Source: Planctomyces sp. (GTDB taxonomy: Bacteria > Planctomycetota > Planctomycetia > Planctomycetales > Planctomycetaceae). Taken from it: a stretch of 64,000 nt of DNA. Below, one piece after another: positions 6,238-54,922 of this stretch. Position 1 is the stretch's first letter; every line of letters begins with the position of its first letter. A program made the translations under genes and the position numbers. The stretch covers positions 186,001 through 250,000 of the forward strand of contig JAHBXW010000005.1 in the NCBI GenBank assembly GCA_019636235.1, given 5' to 3'. The notes under the pieces were generated by a model. The model saw nothing but the letters and a program-made list of their open reading frames with translations, had not been told where the DNA came from and did no database searches.

Positions 6238-6702
6238 GTCGGCAGGCGCCATGCGGTCCGGGGTCGACGCCCGTCGATGTCGCCGCAGAACAGTTTCGAG
6301 GGCGGAGCCGCGCGCTGCCGCGGACGCATCTGCGACGGGCCGGCTGAGCCGTGAAGCGTCTCCGCGCCGCCGATCAGCGTCAAGGCTTGCGGCCGCGGCC
6401 TGCGTCGACCCGTCGTGTGCCACTGGCTTTGCCAGTGCAGCGCGCGAACCATTCCGCACCGCAGCCTCGACGAATCCAGAGGAAGCTGGTCAGTTCGTCT
6501 TGACAAGTCGGGACTCGGGCAGCGTATTCTCTCGACCAGAGTCGGCAAGCTGCGCGGCAGGGAATGTCCGCGCGTCTCCTGTGACGCTCGACAAGATGTC
6601 GGGCGCTTGCCTGCGGCGGCACTTGGAAGTGCTGTCTGCGGGCAACTGGTCCTCATGGTTGAGGAGCGCCTGAATCAGGCGTCCAGCAAAGGAGTTTCTG
6701 CG
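6238..6702. other. Intergenic region between divergent leuB and the csrA fusion
   Basis: No gene is supported here. A possible promoter for the rightward csrA-receiver gene is TTGACA at 6500-6505 with TATTCT at 6525-6530, but the 19-nt spacer is longer than ideal. The Shine-Dalgarno AAAGGAG at 6688-6694 fixes the csrA start at 6703. Nothing resembling a leucine leader peptide was seen in front of leuB. Confidence 0.4.
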
Positions 6703-7479: not shown

Positions 7480-11205
<3,726 letters not shown>

Positions 11206-47829: not shown

Positions 47830-49026
47830 ATGTCACGGCCCTTGCTTCATCGCGCTCTGGTGCGTTCGGCGTCTGCGGCCGGATTTCTTCCCTTTGCGCA
47901 TTTCCTCAGATGCTTCCTGCTGACCTGGGGACTGCTCGGTGCGAGCTGCTCTTTCGAGCGGATTGCGTCTGCCACGACGCCCGCCCTGATTCGCTCCTCG
48001 CTCGCTGACCGCGTCCAGAGAATTCGGCAAGTGCGTGTCGTCTATCGCATTCGGTATGTCGGCGCGCCAGGCGAAAAGTCGCCCTCCCCCGCCGAATTGC
48101 ATTACGACTGGGGATGGGGAAACGGCCAGGAGTATCTGCGGACCTTCGGAATGGACGCTCAGCCCGACTCGGGCGCCACCTCATTCGCTTGGGCGTTTGA
48201 CGGCAAACGCAAGTTCAAATTCCCGATGGACGATTCTGGCAGAATGCTTCAGCTACAGATCCAGAATTCCCATTCGAGCAGCGATCGGCAGGAGTCCGAG
48301 GCCGCGAATTTGATGGGCTTACGAGTCAGTTGGATGCACGAAGACCTTTCGGAACTGGCGGCGATTCCAGACTGCCGGTTTCTCGACTCGGTCGCCATCG
48401 GGTCGGCAAACTATCCCGGGTTCGAGGTGACCACCAAGGGCATCTCGCGGAGAGGACTCGTCCGCGTCCTTGCAGGCCTGGATCCGGATCGTGACTGGGT
48501 GCCCGTCCTGATCCAATGTGAGCAACTGGACGAACGGGGCGATCCGGTTGTCAGGACGCGGCTGGAAGTCGATGCTTCGATGGAAGTCCCCGAAGGCGCC
48601 GATCGGAGCCTGGGGAGCCTGATCGTGCCAAGTTTGGCCAGGCGCACGAGCGAAACCACTGCCGACGGCATCAGGGGCCGCACCGAGATCCATGTCGAAT
48701 CTGTTGCGCTGAACGTGCCCCTGCCGCCACAGTTTGTCGCGCCAGTTATTCCCGACGGAATCACTGTGGATGAGCCCCCATCGAAGCCTGGGGGATTCCC
48801 GATCACATACATCTCAGGGGGTCAAGAGGCCGAATTGGCGGTGCTGGCGTTGCGTGCGCAAGAAATCGAAGCTGAACAACAGAAGGTTCTTGGAAAGTAC
48901 GGCGCACTCGATGCCAGCCCGTTGGCCGGCTCAAGTGCCGGACGGATTTTCGCTGCAATCGCTATTGGCCTTCTGTTGGCCGCCACAGTTGTGTTTTGGT
49001 TGCGACGGTCGCGACTGGATGGTTAA
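47830..49026 (+). CDS. Membrane-anchored secreted protein, first gene of the accessory cluster
   Basis: A 398-residue protein with an N-terminal signal or anchor (HFLRCFLLTWGLLGASC), a beta-rich extracytoplasmic region (VRVVYRIRYVGAPGEKSPSPAELHYDW, later FEVTTKGISRRGLVRVLAGLDPDRDWVPVLIQCEQLD) and a C-terminal helix AAIAIGLLLAATVVFWLRRS followed by a basic tail. The central part resembles lipoprotein-sorting LolA-like folds only in general strand pattern. GAAGG lies 6 nt before the start. The 26-nt gap to the peptide gene suggests one operon. No function can be assigned. Confidence 0.7.
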   Translation: MSRPLLHRALVRSASAAGFLPFAHFLRCFLLTWGLLGASCSFERIASATTPALIRSSLADRVQRIRQVRVVYRIRYVGAPGEKSPSPAELHYDWGWGNGQEYLRTFGMDAQPDSGATSFAWAFDGKRKFKFPMDDSGRMLQLQIQNSHSSSDRQESEAANLMGLRVSWMHEDLSELAAIPDCRFLDSVAIGSANYPGFEVTTKGISRRGLVRVLAGLDPDRDWVPVLIQCEQLDERGDPVVRTRLEVDASMEVPEGADRSLGSLIVPSLARRTSETTADGIRGRTEIHVESVALNVPLPPQFVAPVIPDGITVDEPPSKPGGFPITYISGGQEAELAVLALRAQEIEAEQQKVLGKYGALDASPLAGSSAGRIFAAIAIGLLLAATVVFWLRRSRLDG

Positions 49027-49051
49027 TTTTCCGTGTTAGGAGAAGCATTCA

Positions 49052-49492
49052 ATGAAGATCTCGCAGAGCATGCTCATTGCGGTGTCGAGCGTCGCCGGAG
49101 TGGTGGCCCTCACAATGACGACCCACTCGGCGCCCGCCAATCGTCGTGTATTAGCGACTGAACTGGCCGCAATTCAAGGCGGCGTCGTCCAGGTTTGCGT
49201 CTTTCCGCTTGTCGATGGCGACGCCGTTCATTGCAGCACTTGCCTTCCGGATGGCAACAATCAGTACGTGCGATGCGACGACGGGATCAGCTACAAGTTC
49301 GGCCCCTATACTCCGGGATCGCAATACCGCACAGTCCTCGACACGACCGCTTGCGGTGGCCAGGCGTTGACCTATTGGGACTCCTTTTGCGATATCCAAG
49401 ACACCTCGGTCAGTCCCAAGTTTTGCTACCGAACTCATTTCAAGTTCAACACCACACAGTCAGGATATGACTATGGCCTGACGTGCAACTGA
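49052..49492 (+). CDS. Cys-rich secreted peptide with a double-glycine leader motif
   Basis: A 146-residue precursor behind AGGAGA (8 nt). Residues 1-29 look like a Sec signal peptide (MKISQSMLIAVSSVAGVVAL...SAPA). Residues 33-44 read VLATELAAIQGG, matching the ELxxIxGG core of bacteriocin/RiPP double-glycine leaders cut by C39 peptidases. The part after GG (about 102 residues) holds eight Cys, enough for four disulfides, with many Tyr, Asp and Thr. The gene is followed by a hairpin and then by a C39-like peptidase gene. Role suggested: substrate of that peptidase; toxin, signal or surface peptide are all possible. Confidence 0.72.
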   Translation: MKISQSMLIAVSSVAGVVALTMTTHSAPANRRVLATELAAIQGGVVQVCVFPLVDGDAVHCSTCLPDGNNQYVRCDDGISYKFGPYTPGSQYRTVLDTTACGGQALTYWDSFCDIQDTSVSPKFCYRTHFKFNTTQSGYDYGLTCN

Positions 49493-49504
49493 CTCTGCCG
49501 ATGC

Positions 49505-49537
49505 GGCTCGACGTCGAGCGACGTCGAGCCTGTCTTT
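49505..49537 (+). terminator. Strong hairpin after the peptide gene
   Basis: GGCTCGACGTC (49505-49515) and GACGTCGAGCC (49520-49530) form a perfect 11-bp stem with a 4-nt loop, followed by TGTCTTT, 13 nt beyond the peptide stop. It probably terminates or attenuates transcription, keeping the peptide in excess of the downstream peptidase, as in many bacteriocin operons. Confidence 0.7.
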
Positions 49538-49550
49538 GGACCGTTCCGTC

Positions 49551-49568
49551 CATTGACGCCAGTCAATG
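49551..49568 (+). promoter_or_regulatory. Short inverted repeat before the C39-pilin gene
   Basis: CATTGAC (49551-49557), loop GCCA, GTCAATG (49562-49568): perfect 7-bp stem ending 25 nt before the ATG at 49594. It could be an operator or an mRNA hairpin affecting translation. Confidence 0.4.
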
Positions 49569-49593
49569 ATGCGCAAAGTCGCAGAGGTTTACC

Positions 49594-51213
49594 ATGGCAA
49601 GCGGCGCTTGTTTGATGCTCGTGGCGGCTGTCGTGGGTGTCGAGCACGACGTAAACCATAACGACAATCGTTGCGGCGCGCGTGCGTTGGCCGTGTGCGC
49701 CGCAACATGCGGCGTGACGAGCAGTATCTTCGAATTGGACTTGCGAGCTGGAAGCAAGGGAGCTCAGACAAGTCTCTTGGACCTCACTCGAGCGGCGGAG
49801 GCAACGGGGCTGCACACGCTGGCAATCGAGTGGAATCCGCGCCTGGATGTCTCGACCCAATGGACCTGCAGCGGCATATTGCGAGTGCTCTCAAAAAGGG
49901 GCGAGGGGCATTTCGTCGCGGTGCACGCGTGCGATCGTGGCAGGATGTTGATATTGGATTTTCCGCGCCAATTGGAGTGGGTCGAAGCCGCCGTGTTGCG
50001 TGATCGGTGGCAGTGGGATGGGACGATACTGCATATCGCTTCGACTCCCAATGACTTGGCCGGTCTGGACGTCAAACGGCAAGGAATGGCCTCGTTGCTC
50101 TTTGGCGTCGCGTCGTTCTTGATTGGCGGCTGTTTCATTTGGATTGCCACTCATTGTTCCGAGAGTCGTGCAGCGTGGTCCAGAGCCAAAGTCTCGCAAC
50201 TGGCGTTTCGCCAGCTGCGGCTGATGGACAGGAAGTCGCTGAAAGCGGGCCGACGCGGGCTCACGCTTCTCGAAACGTTGGTCACGATGGGAATCATTTC
50301 GCTTCTGCTTTCACTGATTGTTCCGGCCGTGCAGTCGGCGCGGGAGTCGGCGCGACGCGCGGCCTGTTTGAATAATCTGCGGCAGATCGGGGTCGCCTGC
50401 GCGGCGTTCGAATCTTCAGAACGGAAGTACCCCTCTGGGGGGACCCTCGCGGTCGATAGTTCTGGAAAGCAATTATCATTAAACCTTTCCCCGCACGTAC
50501 AATTGCTTCCATATCTGGACCAGTCGGCCATCCACTCGCAGTTCAACATGCTGGAGACAGGCGACGGCGAAGGCGCTGACCCGCCCGTCAGCAAGTGGAA
50601 TCAGACATTGATTTCGACGACGATTCCAATCTTTCAATGCCCGTCTGACAACTTTCCGGCCCCCAGGAGCAACTATCGCGTTTCATGCGGGACGTCGCCT
50701 GGATGGCATGGAACCAAGGATCGCGGACCGAACTCGGCTCGCCCGGGCTTTCGAAGCCTGTACGGGCAGCGGGACTCGGCGTTTGTTGACGGAAAGTCGC
50801 AAACGGCCGCATTCTGCGAACGCGTCACCGGGGATCGCGAACGAGACTGGCTGACGCCATCACGGGATGCTGCGATCGTGAATGGCGTGATGATCATCCG
50901 CCCGGACGACGCTGTGGACGCATGCCGGACTCCGCTTGATCCAACTCGCACCCATTACTCGTTTCTCGGATACACCTGGGCGCTCAGTGGATACCATCAC
51001 ACATGGTATAATCACGTGTTGCCACCCAATTCCTCCACCCCAGACTGCAACGTCGGCAATGGAGCCGTTACGGCGAGGTCTCTTCACCCCGGCGGTGTGA
51101 ACATATTGATGGCCGACGGAAGCGCGCGTTTTGCAAACTCGAACGTCGCGCTGGAAGTCTGGCGGGCGATCGGCTCGATTGACGGCCAGGAGTTCGAAGC
51201 ATCAGAGTTCTGA
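49594..51213 (+). CDS. C39-like peptidase fused to a type IV pilin-like DUF1559 domain
   Basis: A 539-residue two-part membrane protein. Residues 20-150 fit a C39 cysteine peptidase: Cys27 in NDNRCGARALAV, His106 in GEGHFVAVH, Asp122 in LILDFP, and a closing WDGTILHIA. A membrane helix follows (168-187), then a basic segment (190-221), then a prepilin motif RRG-LTLLE with Gly222 and Glu227, a hydrophobic helix and a DUF1559 domain (LNNLRQIGVA) ending in H-x9-DG (His498, Asp508, Gly509). The basic segment between the helices suggests a cytoplasmic loop, placing both domains outside the cytoplasm. It starts after AGAGG. Likely to cleave the upstream GG peptide. Confidence 0.82.
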   Translation: MASGACLMLVAAVVGVEHDVNHNDNRCGARALAVCAATCGVTSSIFELDLRAGSKGAQTSLLDLTRAAEATGLHTLAIEWNPRLDVSTQWTCSGILRVLSKRGEGHFVAVHACDRGRMLILDFPRQLEWVEAAVLRDRWQWDGTILHIASTPNDLAGLDVKRQGMASLLFGVASFLIGGCFIWIATHCSESRAAWSRAKVSQLAFRQLRLMDRKSLKAGRRGLTLLETLVTMGIISLLLSLIVPAVQSARESARRAACLNNLRQIGVACAAFESSERKYPSGGTLAVDSSGKQLSLNLSPHVQLLPYLDQSAIHSQFNMLETGDGEGADPPVSKWNQTLISTTIPIFQCPSDNFPAPRSNYRVSCGTSPGWHGTKDRGPNSARPGFRSLYGQRDSAFVDGKSQTAAFCERVTGDRERDWLTPSRDAAIVNGVMIIRPDDAVDACRTPLDPTRTHYSFLGYTWALSGYHHTWYNHVLPPNSSTPDCNVGNGAVTARSLHPGGVNILMADGSARFANSNVALEVWRAIGSIDGQEFEASEF

Positions 51214-51225
51214 AAGGTGGCTTCC

Positions 51226-52293
51226 GTGACGGCGCAAAAGTACCGACACCGCTGCTGGATTGCAATCGCTGCGGCGGCCGTGAGCATTGTCGCCATGATG
51301 GCGCGGCGGCCAGTGGCAAGCGTCCACGAAGTCATTTCAGTGACGCCACCGCAGATTGATGTCGAGGCGGTCAGCGATGCTCACGTCGCTGCAACAGTGA
51401 CGATTAGGAACATCAGCGCGAGGGAGATTCGCATCGGAGGAGTGGAGGCATCATGCTCATGCACGGCGGCGGCTCCGCTGGCGACGCATGTCCTACGCCC
51501 AGGCGAGGAGACATCGATTACGCTTCGTTTGACGCCTCCTAAGACCGGCATCCAGCAGACGCGAGTCAGCATCCTGCTGGAGGACCCGCACTCCAGATTC
51601 GATATTCCTGTTCGGATGCAAGGTCGACGCGTCGAAGCACCTGCAGTCGTGCTTCAGCCTCCGGAGATATTCGGAGTTGCAGTTACTGGAGAACCCTTCG
51701 AGACTTCGTTTGAAGTGCAGACGTTGGAGCATATTGGAACAGAGTGGCTTCTGGGATTTGACTGTGAGTTACCTGACGTGATCGTCGGGCAGCCATTGCT
51801 GGTTCATAGCGTGAAGGCGGACAGCACAGTGTTGGCTCGCCACTACAAAGTCTCTCTCACGATACATGGGGCAGATCTGAATTCTCGGAAGCTGGCGACT
51901 ACGCTGACGCCGAGGGTCGCATCGACGCCTACCCGCGACGTGCCGGCGATTCGCTGTGTTGTCGACTGGAAGCCAGCATTGCGCGCCTATCCCTCGGCGA
52001 TCGTTGTCGATCCTGGTCGTCATCAGGTCTGGCCAGTGGTCCGGCGAATAGTGATTTCAGGTGCCGATGGACGTGGCTGGGATGTGCAACAGGTCAAGTG
52101 CGAACCTGATTGGTTGAAGGGTGAAGTCGTCCAGTCGGAAACGGAAGGCGCGGTTCGCATTATCGATGCCTATGTGAGCGCTCCGGATGATATGCGCGGG
52201 GTTGATTTGCACGGGACCATCGAGATCAGAACCGGCGTTGAACGGCACCCTCTGATTTCAATCCCCGTGACCGTGATGAGCCGCGGCGGGTGA
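51226..52293 (+). CDS. DUF1573-containing secreted protein
   Basis: A protein of about 355 residues beginning near GTG 51226, with AAGGTGG just upstream; GTG 51217 is possible but would sit on the ribosome site. A signal/anchor helix (CWIAIAAAAVSIVAMMA) precedes a DUF1573 domain: VAATVTIRNISAREIRIGGVEASCSCTAAAP...LRPGEETSITLRLTPPKTG, with the characteristic CSCT. A second, weaker beta-sandwich region follows. DUF1573 is an Ig-like extracytoplasmic domain. It starts 12 nt after the C39-pilin stop, so it belongs to the same operon. Its function in the cluster is unknown; a binding or chaperone role is a guess. Confidence 0.78.
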   Translation: MTAQKYRHRCWIAIAAAAVSIVAMMARRPVASVHEVISVTPPQIDVEAVSDAHVAATVTIRNISAREIRIGGVEASCSCTAAAPLATHVLRPGEETSITLRLTPPKTGIQQTRVSILLEDPHSRFDIPVRMQGRRVEAPAVVLQPPEIFGVAVTGEPFETSFEVQTLEHIGTEWLLGFDCELPDVIVGQPLLVHSVKADSTVLARHYKVSLTIHGADLNSRKLATTLTPRVASTPTRDVPAIRCVVDWKPALRAYPSAIVVDPGRHQVWPVVRRIVISGADGRGWDVQQVKCEPDWLKGEVVQSETEGAVRIIDAYVSAPDDMRGVDLHGTIEIRTGVERHPLISIPVTVMSRGG

Positions 52294-53730: not shown

Positions 53731-54066
53731 ATGTCCACTCGATCTGCAAAGCGATTCTCCGGTGCCTACATTGATGTACGTCAGAAGACTCGCAGCTTTC
53801 TGCTCACAAAGATGCCCGCATCTGTGTTGACAGACATCTCGTACACGGCTGTGCGAAATATCGATGACGAAGAAGGTGCGGTTCAACGTATTCTGGATCG
53901 GGGGAGAATTCGCGACGTCACGAAGTTCACGCTCGGCGGTGGCGACTTTCCGGCATCCGTGATCCTGAATTGGGTTGCGAACGACCGCCCCATCGAGACT
54001 AAGAAGCGGACCAAAAACCTCGGCATGGAATTTGCGCCAGGGAGCGGGAATCTGTTCCCGTTTTAG
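53731..54066 (+). pseudogene. N-terminal fragment of a DGQHR-domain-like protein, interrupted by IS
   Basis: Residues 10-83 (YIDVRQKTRSFLLTKMPASVL, then DDEEGAVQRILDRGRIRDVTKFTLGGGDFPASVILNW) resemble the start of DGQHR-domain proteins such as DndB. The native frame runs to 54000, where the IS inserts at TAA; the last 21 codons to 54066 come from the IS left end. Joining the flanks without the IS gives stop after eight more codons, so the gene was already short or frameshifted. Its lower GC suggests foreign origin. Confidence 0.6.
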
Positions 54067-54922
54067 GAGCCGCCCCATGGCCAGCGCCCGGATGCCCGAG
54101 GAGTTCTTTGACATTGTCGCCCATCACCTGCCGCCCGATGAACCCGTCGGTCCCGACGGCGGTCGGCCGCGAGTCTCCAACCGCTGCGTCATGAAGGTCC
54201 TGTGGTATGTCCTGGCCACTGGATGCCGCTGGAGAGACGTCCCAACCGAGATGGGCTGCTGCGGGGAAACCGCCCGCTCCCGGCTCAGGCTCTGGGAAGA
54301 GGCCGGCATCTGGGCCCGGCTGCATGTCGATCTGCTGGGACTGCTGCGGCGCGATGGAGAACTGGAGCATGACACCGCCATCGTGGATGCCGTCCTGATC
54401 CGTGCCCATGGCGGCGGGGACAAGACCGGCCCGAATCCCGCCGACCGCGGAAAACCCGGCACGAAACAGACATTGATGGTCGACAAAGGCGGTGCTCCCC
54501 TGGCGATCCGGACGGCCGGCGCCAACGCCAGCGACCACACCCAGATCCTGCCGCTGGTGGCATTGGCGTTCCCACAGGTCGCTGGTCGACCGGGCCGACC
54601 TCGAAAGGCTCCGGACACGGTGTACGCCGATGCGGGGTACGACAGTGAAGCGACCCGCAGCCTGCTCAGACATCTGGGGATTGAACCGCGAATTCGCCGC
54701 CGCGGGACAGTTCATGGGAGCAGGCTGGGAAGGATCCGCTGGGTGGTGGAACGGACGATCAGCTGGTTCAAGGGCCTGCGGCGGATGCGGGTGCGCTATG
54801 ACCGCTCCGAGGACATCATGGAGGCTTGGAAGTCGCTGGCGATGAGCGTGATTACCTTCCGACTCTGGCATCATGATCTGGCCCCGGCCAGTTGATTCAA
54901 CCGGCGGTTTCTGGTCCGCCTC
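54003..54922 (+). mobile_element. IS5-family insertion sequence (920 bp) with inverted repeats and TAA target duplication
   Basis: Ends are defined by terminal inverted repeats: left GAAGCGGACCAAAAACC from 54003, right (reverse strand) GAGGCGGACCAGAAACC ending at 54922, 15 of 17 identical. Both sides carry TAA (54000-54002 and 54923-54925), a 3-bp target duplication as in the IS427/IS1031-like groups. It encodes one intact transposase. Only one copy is seen in this window. Confidence 0.85.
54077..54895 (+). CDS. IS5-family DDE transposase
   Basis: A 272-residue transposase. The N-terminal helix-turn-helix region (VSNRCVMKVLWYVLATGCRWRDVPTEMG) is followed by the DDE catalytic set: Asp in DTAIVDAVLIRAHGG, Asp in TVYADAGYDSEATR, and Glu in RIRWVVERTISWFKGLRRMRVRYDR. 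The start at 54077 has AGGAG 7 nt upstream. It has a single frame without the frameshift seen in some IS427 members and no stop codons inside, so it may still be active. It lies wholly within the 920-bp element. Confidence 0.93.
   Translation: MASARMPEEFFDIVAHHLPPDEPVGPDGGRPRVSNRCVMKVLWYVLATGCRWRDVPTEMGCCGETARSRLRLWEEAGIWARLHVDLLGLLRRDGELEHDTAIVDAVLIRAHGGGDKTGPNPADRGKPGTKQTLMVDKGGAPLAIRTAGANASDHTQILPLVALAFPQVAGRPGRPRKAPDTVYADAGYDSEATRSLLRHLGIEPRIRRRGTVHGSRLGRIRWVVERTISWFKGLRRMRVRYDRSEDIMEAWKSLAMSVITFRLWHHDLAPAS

Follow-up and report, generated by a model that had tools for sequence, protein, structure and literature searches.

Background

Double-glycine leaders are understood to be signals for ABC exporters that are equipped with a peptidase. 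The PCAT enzymes ComA, PCAT1 and LahT150 are the closest described relatives of the C39 domains reported here, with which they share the peptidase fold and a Cys/His/Asp triad, and their substrates carry the leader type E-8, L-7, I/V/L-4, G-2, G/A/S-1 that is also found in B, a Cys-rich protein encoded in the same gene cassette as the C39 domain. Unlike PCAT systems, the cassette has no ABC transporter, an N-terminal signal and a C-terminal helix are predicted to place the C39 domain outside the cytoplasm, the putative substrate B has a Sec signal before its GG leader, and the oxyanion Gln is missing. Class II bacteriocins and microcins come with an ABC exporter and an immunity gene and have no Sec signal, whereas the cassette contains neither gene and a Sec-type signal is present. 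C39-like folds outside the cytoplasm have precedents. One is the periplasmic domain of EpsAB/GspA (PDB 4g54), which matches the model of our C39 domain more weakly (E 9e-4) and for which we know of no double-glycine substrate; EpsA stands next to pseudopilin machinery. Another is Peptidase_C39_2 (PF13529), described as single-domain peptidases (PMC10318531), a family that was not called in the cassette.

The DUF1559 genes of planctomycetes are known to have been massively expanded, and their neighbours often encode a type I or II signal peptide (PMC8567305). These pilin-like proteins share a prepilin signal, the SBP_bac_10 domain and the H-X9-DG motif with gene C of the cassette, and the section consulted says nothing of C39, of GG leaders or of a partner rich in Cys. 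Secreted proteins with GG motifs have been given a non-antibiotic surface role in Synechococcus biofilm, with neither a Sec signal nor an outward C39 described in the abstract (PMC4997328). Our literature search, outside which subscription journals largely lay, returned no paper on C39 with DUF1559 or DUF1573, or on a Sec-exported GG peptide in planctomycetes. The parts are thus known, but the arrangement of an outward C39 with a Sec-exported GG protein seems undescribed, as an original prediction made from the sequence of the locus had supposed of its layout. The GG recognition module has seemingly moved outside the cytoplasm and been combined with Sec, which would uncouple export from leader removal. 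Leader and peptidase behave as a removable pair and so offer a natural experiment on leader function, and the cassette is a testable entry to the expanded, unexplained DUF1559 pilins, DUF1573 proteins and Cys-rich secreted proteins of planctomycetes.

Results and discussion

A four-gene cassette in a planctomycete genome

The window, the 64,000-nucleotide stretch of Planctomyces sp. DNA analysed here (genome G000, contig C41), contains a four-gene cassette, A-B-C-D. The original prediction covered 49052-51213; genes A, upstream, and D, downstream, are two further partners outside that range. The features are as follows.

47830..49026, + strand: gene A, secreted protein of 398 aa with a predicted LolA/LolB-like fold and a C-terminal membrane helix
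49052..49492, + strand: gene B, Sec-exported Cys-rich protein of 146 aa with eight Cys
49052..49138, + strand: predicted Sec signal peptide of B, residues 1-29, putatively cut after APA (from sequence)
49139..49183, + strand: second propeptide of B, NRRVLATELAAIQGG, 15 residues, ending in GG (43-44); leader profile 13.9 bits
49184..49489, + strand: Cys-rich part of B predicted to be the mature domain, its first Cys four residues past GG (homology to leaderless B)
49505..49530, + strand: strong hairpin in the B-C gap, with a stem of 11 bp (49480-49593 folds with z -2.9)
49594..51213, + strand: gene C, C39-TM-DUF1559 fusion of 539 aa
49594..49641, + strand: N-terminal hydrophobic signal/anchor of C (hydropathy 2.8)
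49654..50052, + strand: C39 peptidase domain of C, residues 21-153, with Cys27, His106 and Asp122 (PF03412, AF2 model)
50086..50154, + strand: predicted transmembrane helix of C (about residues 165-187, from sequence) with a basic loop behind it; net charge rises from 0 before the helix to +3 after it
50242..50308, + strand: prepilin signal of C, KAGRRG/LTLLETLV, predicted cut after Gly222, Glu at +5 (PF07963, TIGR02532)
50332..51153, + strand: DUF1559 (SBP_bac_10) pilin-like domain of C with H-X9-DG motif (PF07596 138.9 bits; TIGR04294)
51217..52293, + strand: gene D, DUF1573/HYDIN-like Ig-domain exported protein, whose start may be 51226 (PF07610 2.5e-8, PF22544 3.4e-7)

The genome has 59 DUF1559 matches as against one significant C39 match, which is gene C. 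The strong hairpin that had been noted between B and C is borne out by its stem and folding score, and it may set the expression of B above that of C. The B-C gap of a related cassette (L041, 7203-7340) also holds a strong hairpin; in two others (L009 and L036) the gap is small or none. A transposase-like ORF, IS5-type by eye, lies just downstream of the cassette at 53975-54895.

Protein B carries a double-glycine leader behind a Sec signal

The N-terminus of B is hydrophobic, ELAAIQGG occupies residues 37-44, no Cys precedes the GG, and eight Cys fall within the 102 residues after it; on both counts, a secreted precursor with its own Sec signal and a GG motif upstream of a Cys-rich core, the sequence agrees with what had been predicted, the hydrophobic N-terminus preceding the GG. 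The stretch TELAAIQGG has the E-8, L-7, hydrophobic -4, G-2 and G/A/S-1 of double-glycine leaders and scores 13.9 bits with a profile made from characterised bacteriocin leaders only, the 99th percentile of shuffled sequences being 8.6. The candidate C39 substrate peptide from B is NRRVLATELAAIQGGVVQVC.

Profile searches of B against Pfam and NCBIfam gave nothing useful. By blastp, B of the window matches its counterparts in L036 (2.3e-10) and L041 (3e-4), and B of L041, which has both leader and C39, matches those of L098 (2.5e-5) and L099 (8e-6), which have neither. Judged by these similarities, the predicted mature domain of B is homologous in proteins with and without the leader, at one or two steps. 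The spacing from GG to the first Cys is near-constant in the window type of B, and in cassettes that lack C39 (L098, L099, L100, L108, L109 and others) the Cys core follows the signal peptide directly, with no GG leader. Genes were called with a simple home-made caller, and the ORF taken as B was chosen, in part by eye, for its richness in Cys, its hydrophobic N-terminus and its position. One cassette (L278) encodes two different Cys-rich forms of B (6238-6606 and 9637-10014) whose leaders are nearly the same, which suggests duplication with diversification of the core.

The C39 domain keeps its triad and lacks the oxyanion Gln

The N-terminal half of C matches PF03412 with E 5.7e-8 (33.1 bits, cut-off 22), and an AF2 model of the domain (pLDDT 82) resembles ComA (Z 15.7) and PCAT1 (Z 14.9). 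Residues 22-151 of the model align to residues 12-141 of ComA with a constant shift of 10, so that Cys27, His106 and Asp122 fall on the ComA triad, Cys17/His96/Asp112. The match and the alignment thus bear out the triad originally read from the sequence, and the membrane helix (about residues 165-187) and pilin-like half claimed with it were also recovered, the latter as DUF1559/SBP_bac_10 (PF07596, E 4.3e-40). The prepilin N-methylation motif of C falls just below the Pfam cut-off for PF07963 and above the NCBIfam cut-off for TIGR02532; C thus combines the prepilin signal and SBP_bac_10 domain that define DUF1559 pilin-like proteins.

Conservation of the triad among homologues had been named as a check. 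The catalytic Cys is kept in 34 of the 36 cassette C39 proteins scored, and Cys, His and Asp are all present in 30 of the 34 Cys-bearing ones, Asp being replaced by Asn or Glu in the other four. ABC-type controls all (19/19) have an oxyanion Gln six residues ahead of the Cys. The cassette proteins, in contrast, lack this Gln, so that their activity may be altered or lost, and its absence leaves room for a docking or ligase role. Papain-like families without the canonical oxyanion residue are known, most of them toxin-type acyltransferases, deamidases and transglutaminases (PMC10318531). A C39 domain tree separates the cassette group from the ABC type by a weakly supported branch. The Gln before the Cys is kept in further small planctomycete C39 proteins, L219, L220, L221 and L224, which are not in a cassette with A. 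Two cassette members are degenerate: the C39 of L104 (4988-5632) has no catalytic Cys and stands with a B without leader, and that of L124 (4354-4923) has neither Cys nor Asp and stands with a B that keeps the motif ..EEGQQINGS.

Predicted topology and the pilin fusion

A hydrophobic stretch precedes the C39 domain in 46 of 49 cassette C39 proteins and a strong helix follows it in 35 of the 49; net positive charge is higher after the helix than before (mean 2.9 vs 1.1, p 2e-4). Because of the N-terminal hydrophobic stretch and the positive-inside helix after the domain, the cassette C39 peptidase very probably faces out of the cytoplasm, which is the orientation first proposed as a possibility. 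In L059 the C39 domain is joined straight to a DUF1573 domain with no helix between, and this agrees with an outward C39, since the DUF1573 domain is exported.

In C, the basic loop is followed by a prepilin site (RRG/LTLLE) that is kept in L009, L036 and L041, and the genome itself encodes prepilin peptidases. In several DUF1573 fusions, what comes after the post-helix loop is another helix or a stretch resembling a lipobox. Since the downstream halves have sorting signals of their own, the C39 fusions look like neighbouring genes run together, and the C fusion is probably split after translation at the prepilin-peptidase site. The proposal that cleavage of B is tied to pseudopilin assembly is not supported as it stood: the fusion is confined to the window and three relatives, and with an intact prepilin site between the halves no specific tie is indicated.

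C39 is an optional module of a wider cassette

A protein search of 398 genomes of the class returned further C39 proteins, some of which are ABC exporters, and the genes around them were identified by means of a simple gene caller together with home-made profiles. More loci were drawn with a profile of a DUF1559 sub-region, and cassettes lacking C39 also came in this way. The order A-B-C39/DUF1559-D recurs in L009, L036 and L041, which with the window are the only carriers of the C39-DUF1559 fusion; in L037, C39 and DUF1559 are separate neighbouring genes of the cassette. Elsewhere (L038, L039, L040, L042, L052, L059, L061, L101 and L208) C39 is free-standing, at about 200 aa, or fused to DUF1573. 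Thus, of the linkage originally foreseen, the joint conservation of B and C39 stood, whereas the fusion to DUF1559 proved to be a local variant. C39 is an optional module, mostly free-standing and sometimes fused to DUF1573, of a larger unit of A, B, DUF1559 and DUF1573, looser versions of which occur in several planctomycete families; carriers include a Schlesneria MAG, Singulisphaera sp. GP187, and Isosphaeraceae, Planctomycetaceae and Pirellulaceae MAGs.

Protein A gave no convincing Pfam match in a profile search. Its AF2 model (pLDDT 78) has LolA3, LolA and LolB as best PDB matches (Foldseek 2.7e-9; Z 13.1 over 225 residues against LolA/LolB-type structures), so that A is, by predicted fold alone, a LolA/LolB-fold, lipoprotein-carrier-like protein. 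It shares this modelled fold with the LolA/LolB/RseB superfamily and differs from it in having no Pfam sequence match, a C-terminal helix tether and a place in the cassette. The A family has members in 135 of the 298 class genomes searched and adjoins B, C or D homologues at many loci, and many A copies among the neighbourhoods read have no C39 beside them. The A tree joins L041 (with C39 and GG) and L098 (with neither) as sisters, with support of 98/86, and on this tree the C39 label changes about eight times, at least two of these changes being forced. The genome of the window has further pairs of A and DUF1559 (G000:C45:35348-37458 and G000:C8:65440-67887; L185 and L226), which are without C39 and without a recognised B.

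Leaders go with C39 across cassettes

A simple rule asked for [LIVFYM].G[GAS] in the part of B that lies past its hydrophobic core and ahead of its first Cys. This rule was matched in 22 of the 34 cassettes with a Cys-bearing C39 and in one of the 14 without (p 3e-4); three of the 22 matches lie off the expected place, and p is 0.003 when these three are dropped and 0.033 when well-supported clades are collapsed. A leader profile was built solely from 13 characterised bacteriocin leaders of the literature. It exceeded the 95% shuffle level in 14/34 cassettes with C39 and 1/14 without (p 0.037), or 0/12 when the comparison is limited to cassettes free of any C39 gene (p 0.009). A motif finder blind to the C39 label returned the pattern L-7, V/I/L-4, G-2 (L..[VIL].G); its presence parameter was saturated, and scores alone were compared. 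The first motif regex, applied with the signal peptide unmasked, was blunt (p 0.0075 strict, 0.078 relaxed).

With the rules frozen, 59 further loci fetched later served as a held-out set, in which the rule was matched in 4/7 cassettes with C39 and 1/17 without (p 0.014), and leader profile scores also separated the two (p 7e-4). In the pooled data the rule is matched by 26 of 41 cassettes with C39 and two of 31 without (Fisher p=5e-7), and the linkage of GG leaders to C39 that was to be checked is therefore present. The A tree yielded just two supported independent pairs, a number too small for significance. About one third of the B proteins beside C39 lack the simple motif, some having variants only (AG, GL, GR).

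Proposed mechanism and alternatives

We consider it probable that B is exported by Sec and then cut after the GG by C39 outside the cytoplasm, a reading that draws on gene linkage, motif association, the triad, the fold and the predicted topology. B would be exported by Sec and signal peptidase would take off residues 1-29; the 15-residue propeptide ending in ELAAIQGG would then be recognised by the outward C39, held at the membrane by its own helix, and cut after the GG. Comparative genomics suggests that the product would be a mature B with its first Cys within about four residues. A prepilin peptidase would cut C after Gly222, to judge from the site, and free the DUF1559 pilin from the C39-TM half. 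Mature B would act at the cell surface or in the periplasm with A, D and the DUF1559 pilin, which appear to form the constant part of the cassette. Lineages without C39 would arrive at a mature B of the same kind with an ordinary signal peptide only. Where the second propeptide is present, it may prevent B from being active, folding or assembling before release by C39.

A cytoplasmic C39 that acts like those of bacteriocin exporters, trimming B or some other GG peptide ahead of export, would fit a fold and triad that are those of ComA and PCAT1. It is nevertheless hardly credible for this locus: the Sec signal of B sits upstream of the GG, so that a cytoplasmic cut would strip B of its export signal, and 46/49 cassette C39 proteins have the N-terminal hydrophobic stretch, with a positive-inside helix usually after the domain. 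As originally stated, no ABC exporter is fused, C having no ABC domain; none is adjacent either, and a scan of the genome for C39 found no significant match besides gene C. The leader and Cys-rich core of B also resemble class II bacteriocins and microcins, so that B might be an antimicrobial of the bacteriocin kind, with the cassette serving to export this toxin. That reading is very improbable given that the cassette has no ABC exporter and no immunity-like small gene, that its constant partners are envelope proteins (LolA fold, DUF1573, DUF1559) and that many cassettes have a B without GG leader; no antimicrobial role of B is indicated.

Loss of the oxyanion Gln across the whole cassette clade, replacement of Asp by Asn or Glu in four members and retention of the motif beside the Cys-less C39 of L124 would suit a non-proteolytic docking domain, like the C39-like domain of HlyB, that holds the leader of B at the membrane or passes B to a secretion machine. 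We hold this to be doubtful, since docking alone would not require the Cys (34/36) or the Asp (30/34), and in L104 loss of the catalytic Cys coincides with loss of the B leader. Single motifs are short and degenerate, and the GG-like motif might be a chance feature of a linker, the substrate of C39 being something else, e.g. the pilin; this is unlikely, since the motif goes with C39 in each of two separate data sets, for one of which the rules had been fixed in advance, and since the distance from GG to first Cys is near-constant in the window type of B. There is, finally, a small chance that the cassette C39 domains are outward transpeptidases that cut B after the GG and join one side to the pilin, the DUF1573 protein or the cell wall; if so, a sortase-like assembly route would have arisen from a bacteriocin-leader peptidase. 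Extracytoplasmic cleavage of B by C39 remains the reading we prefer.

Probable acquisition of the cassette

In a congener (G001), the gene ald, which is the upstream neighbour of the cassette in the window, is 85% identical and has no cassette beside it, and that genome gave no C39 match of the cassette type. The cassette (47830-52293) has a GC content of 0.589 as against 0.66-0.675 in its flanks, and a GC3 of 0.63-0.69 as against about 0.88 in neighbouring genes. The lower GC and GC3, together with the ald locus of the congener, indicate that the cassette was probably acquired, and the acquisition is likely to have been recent.
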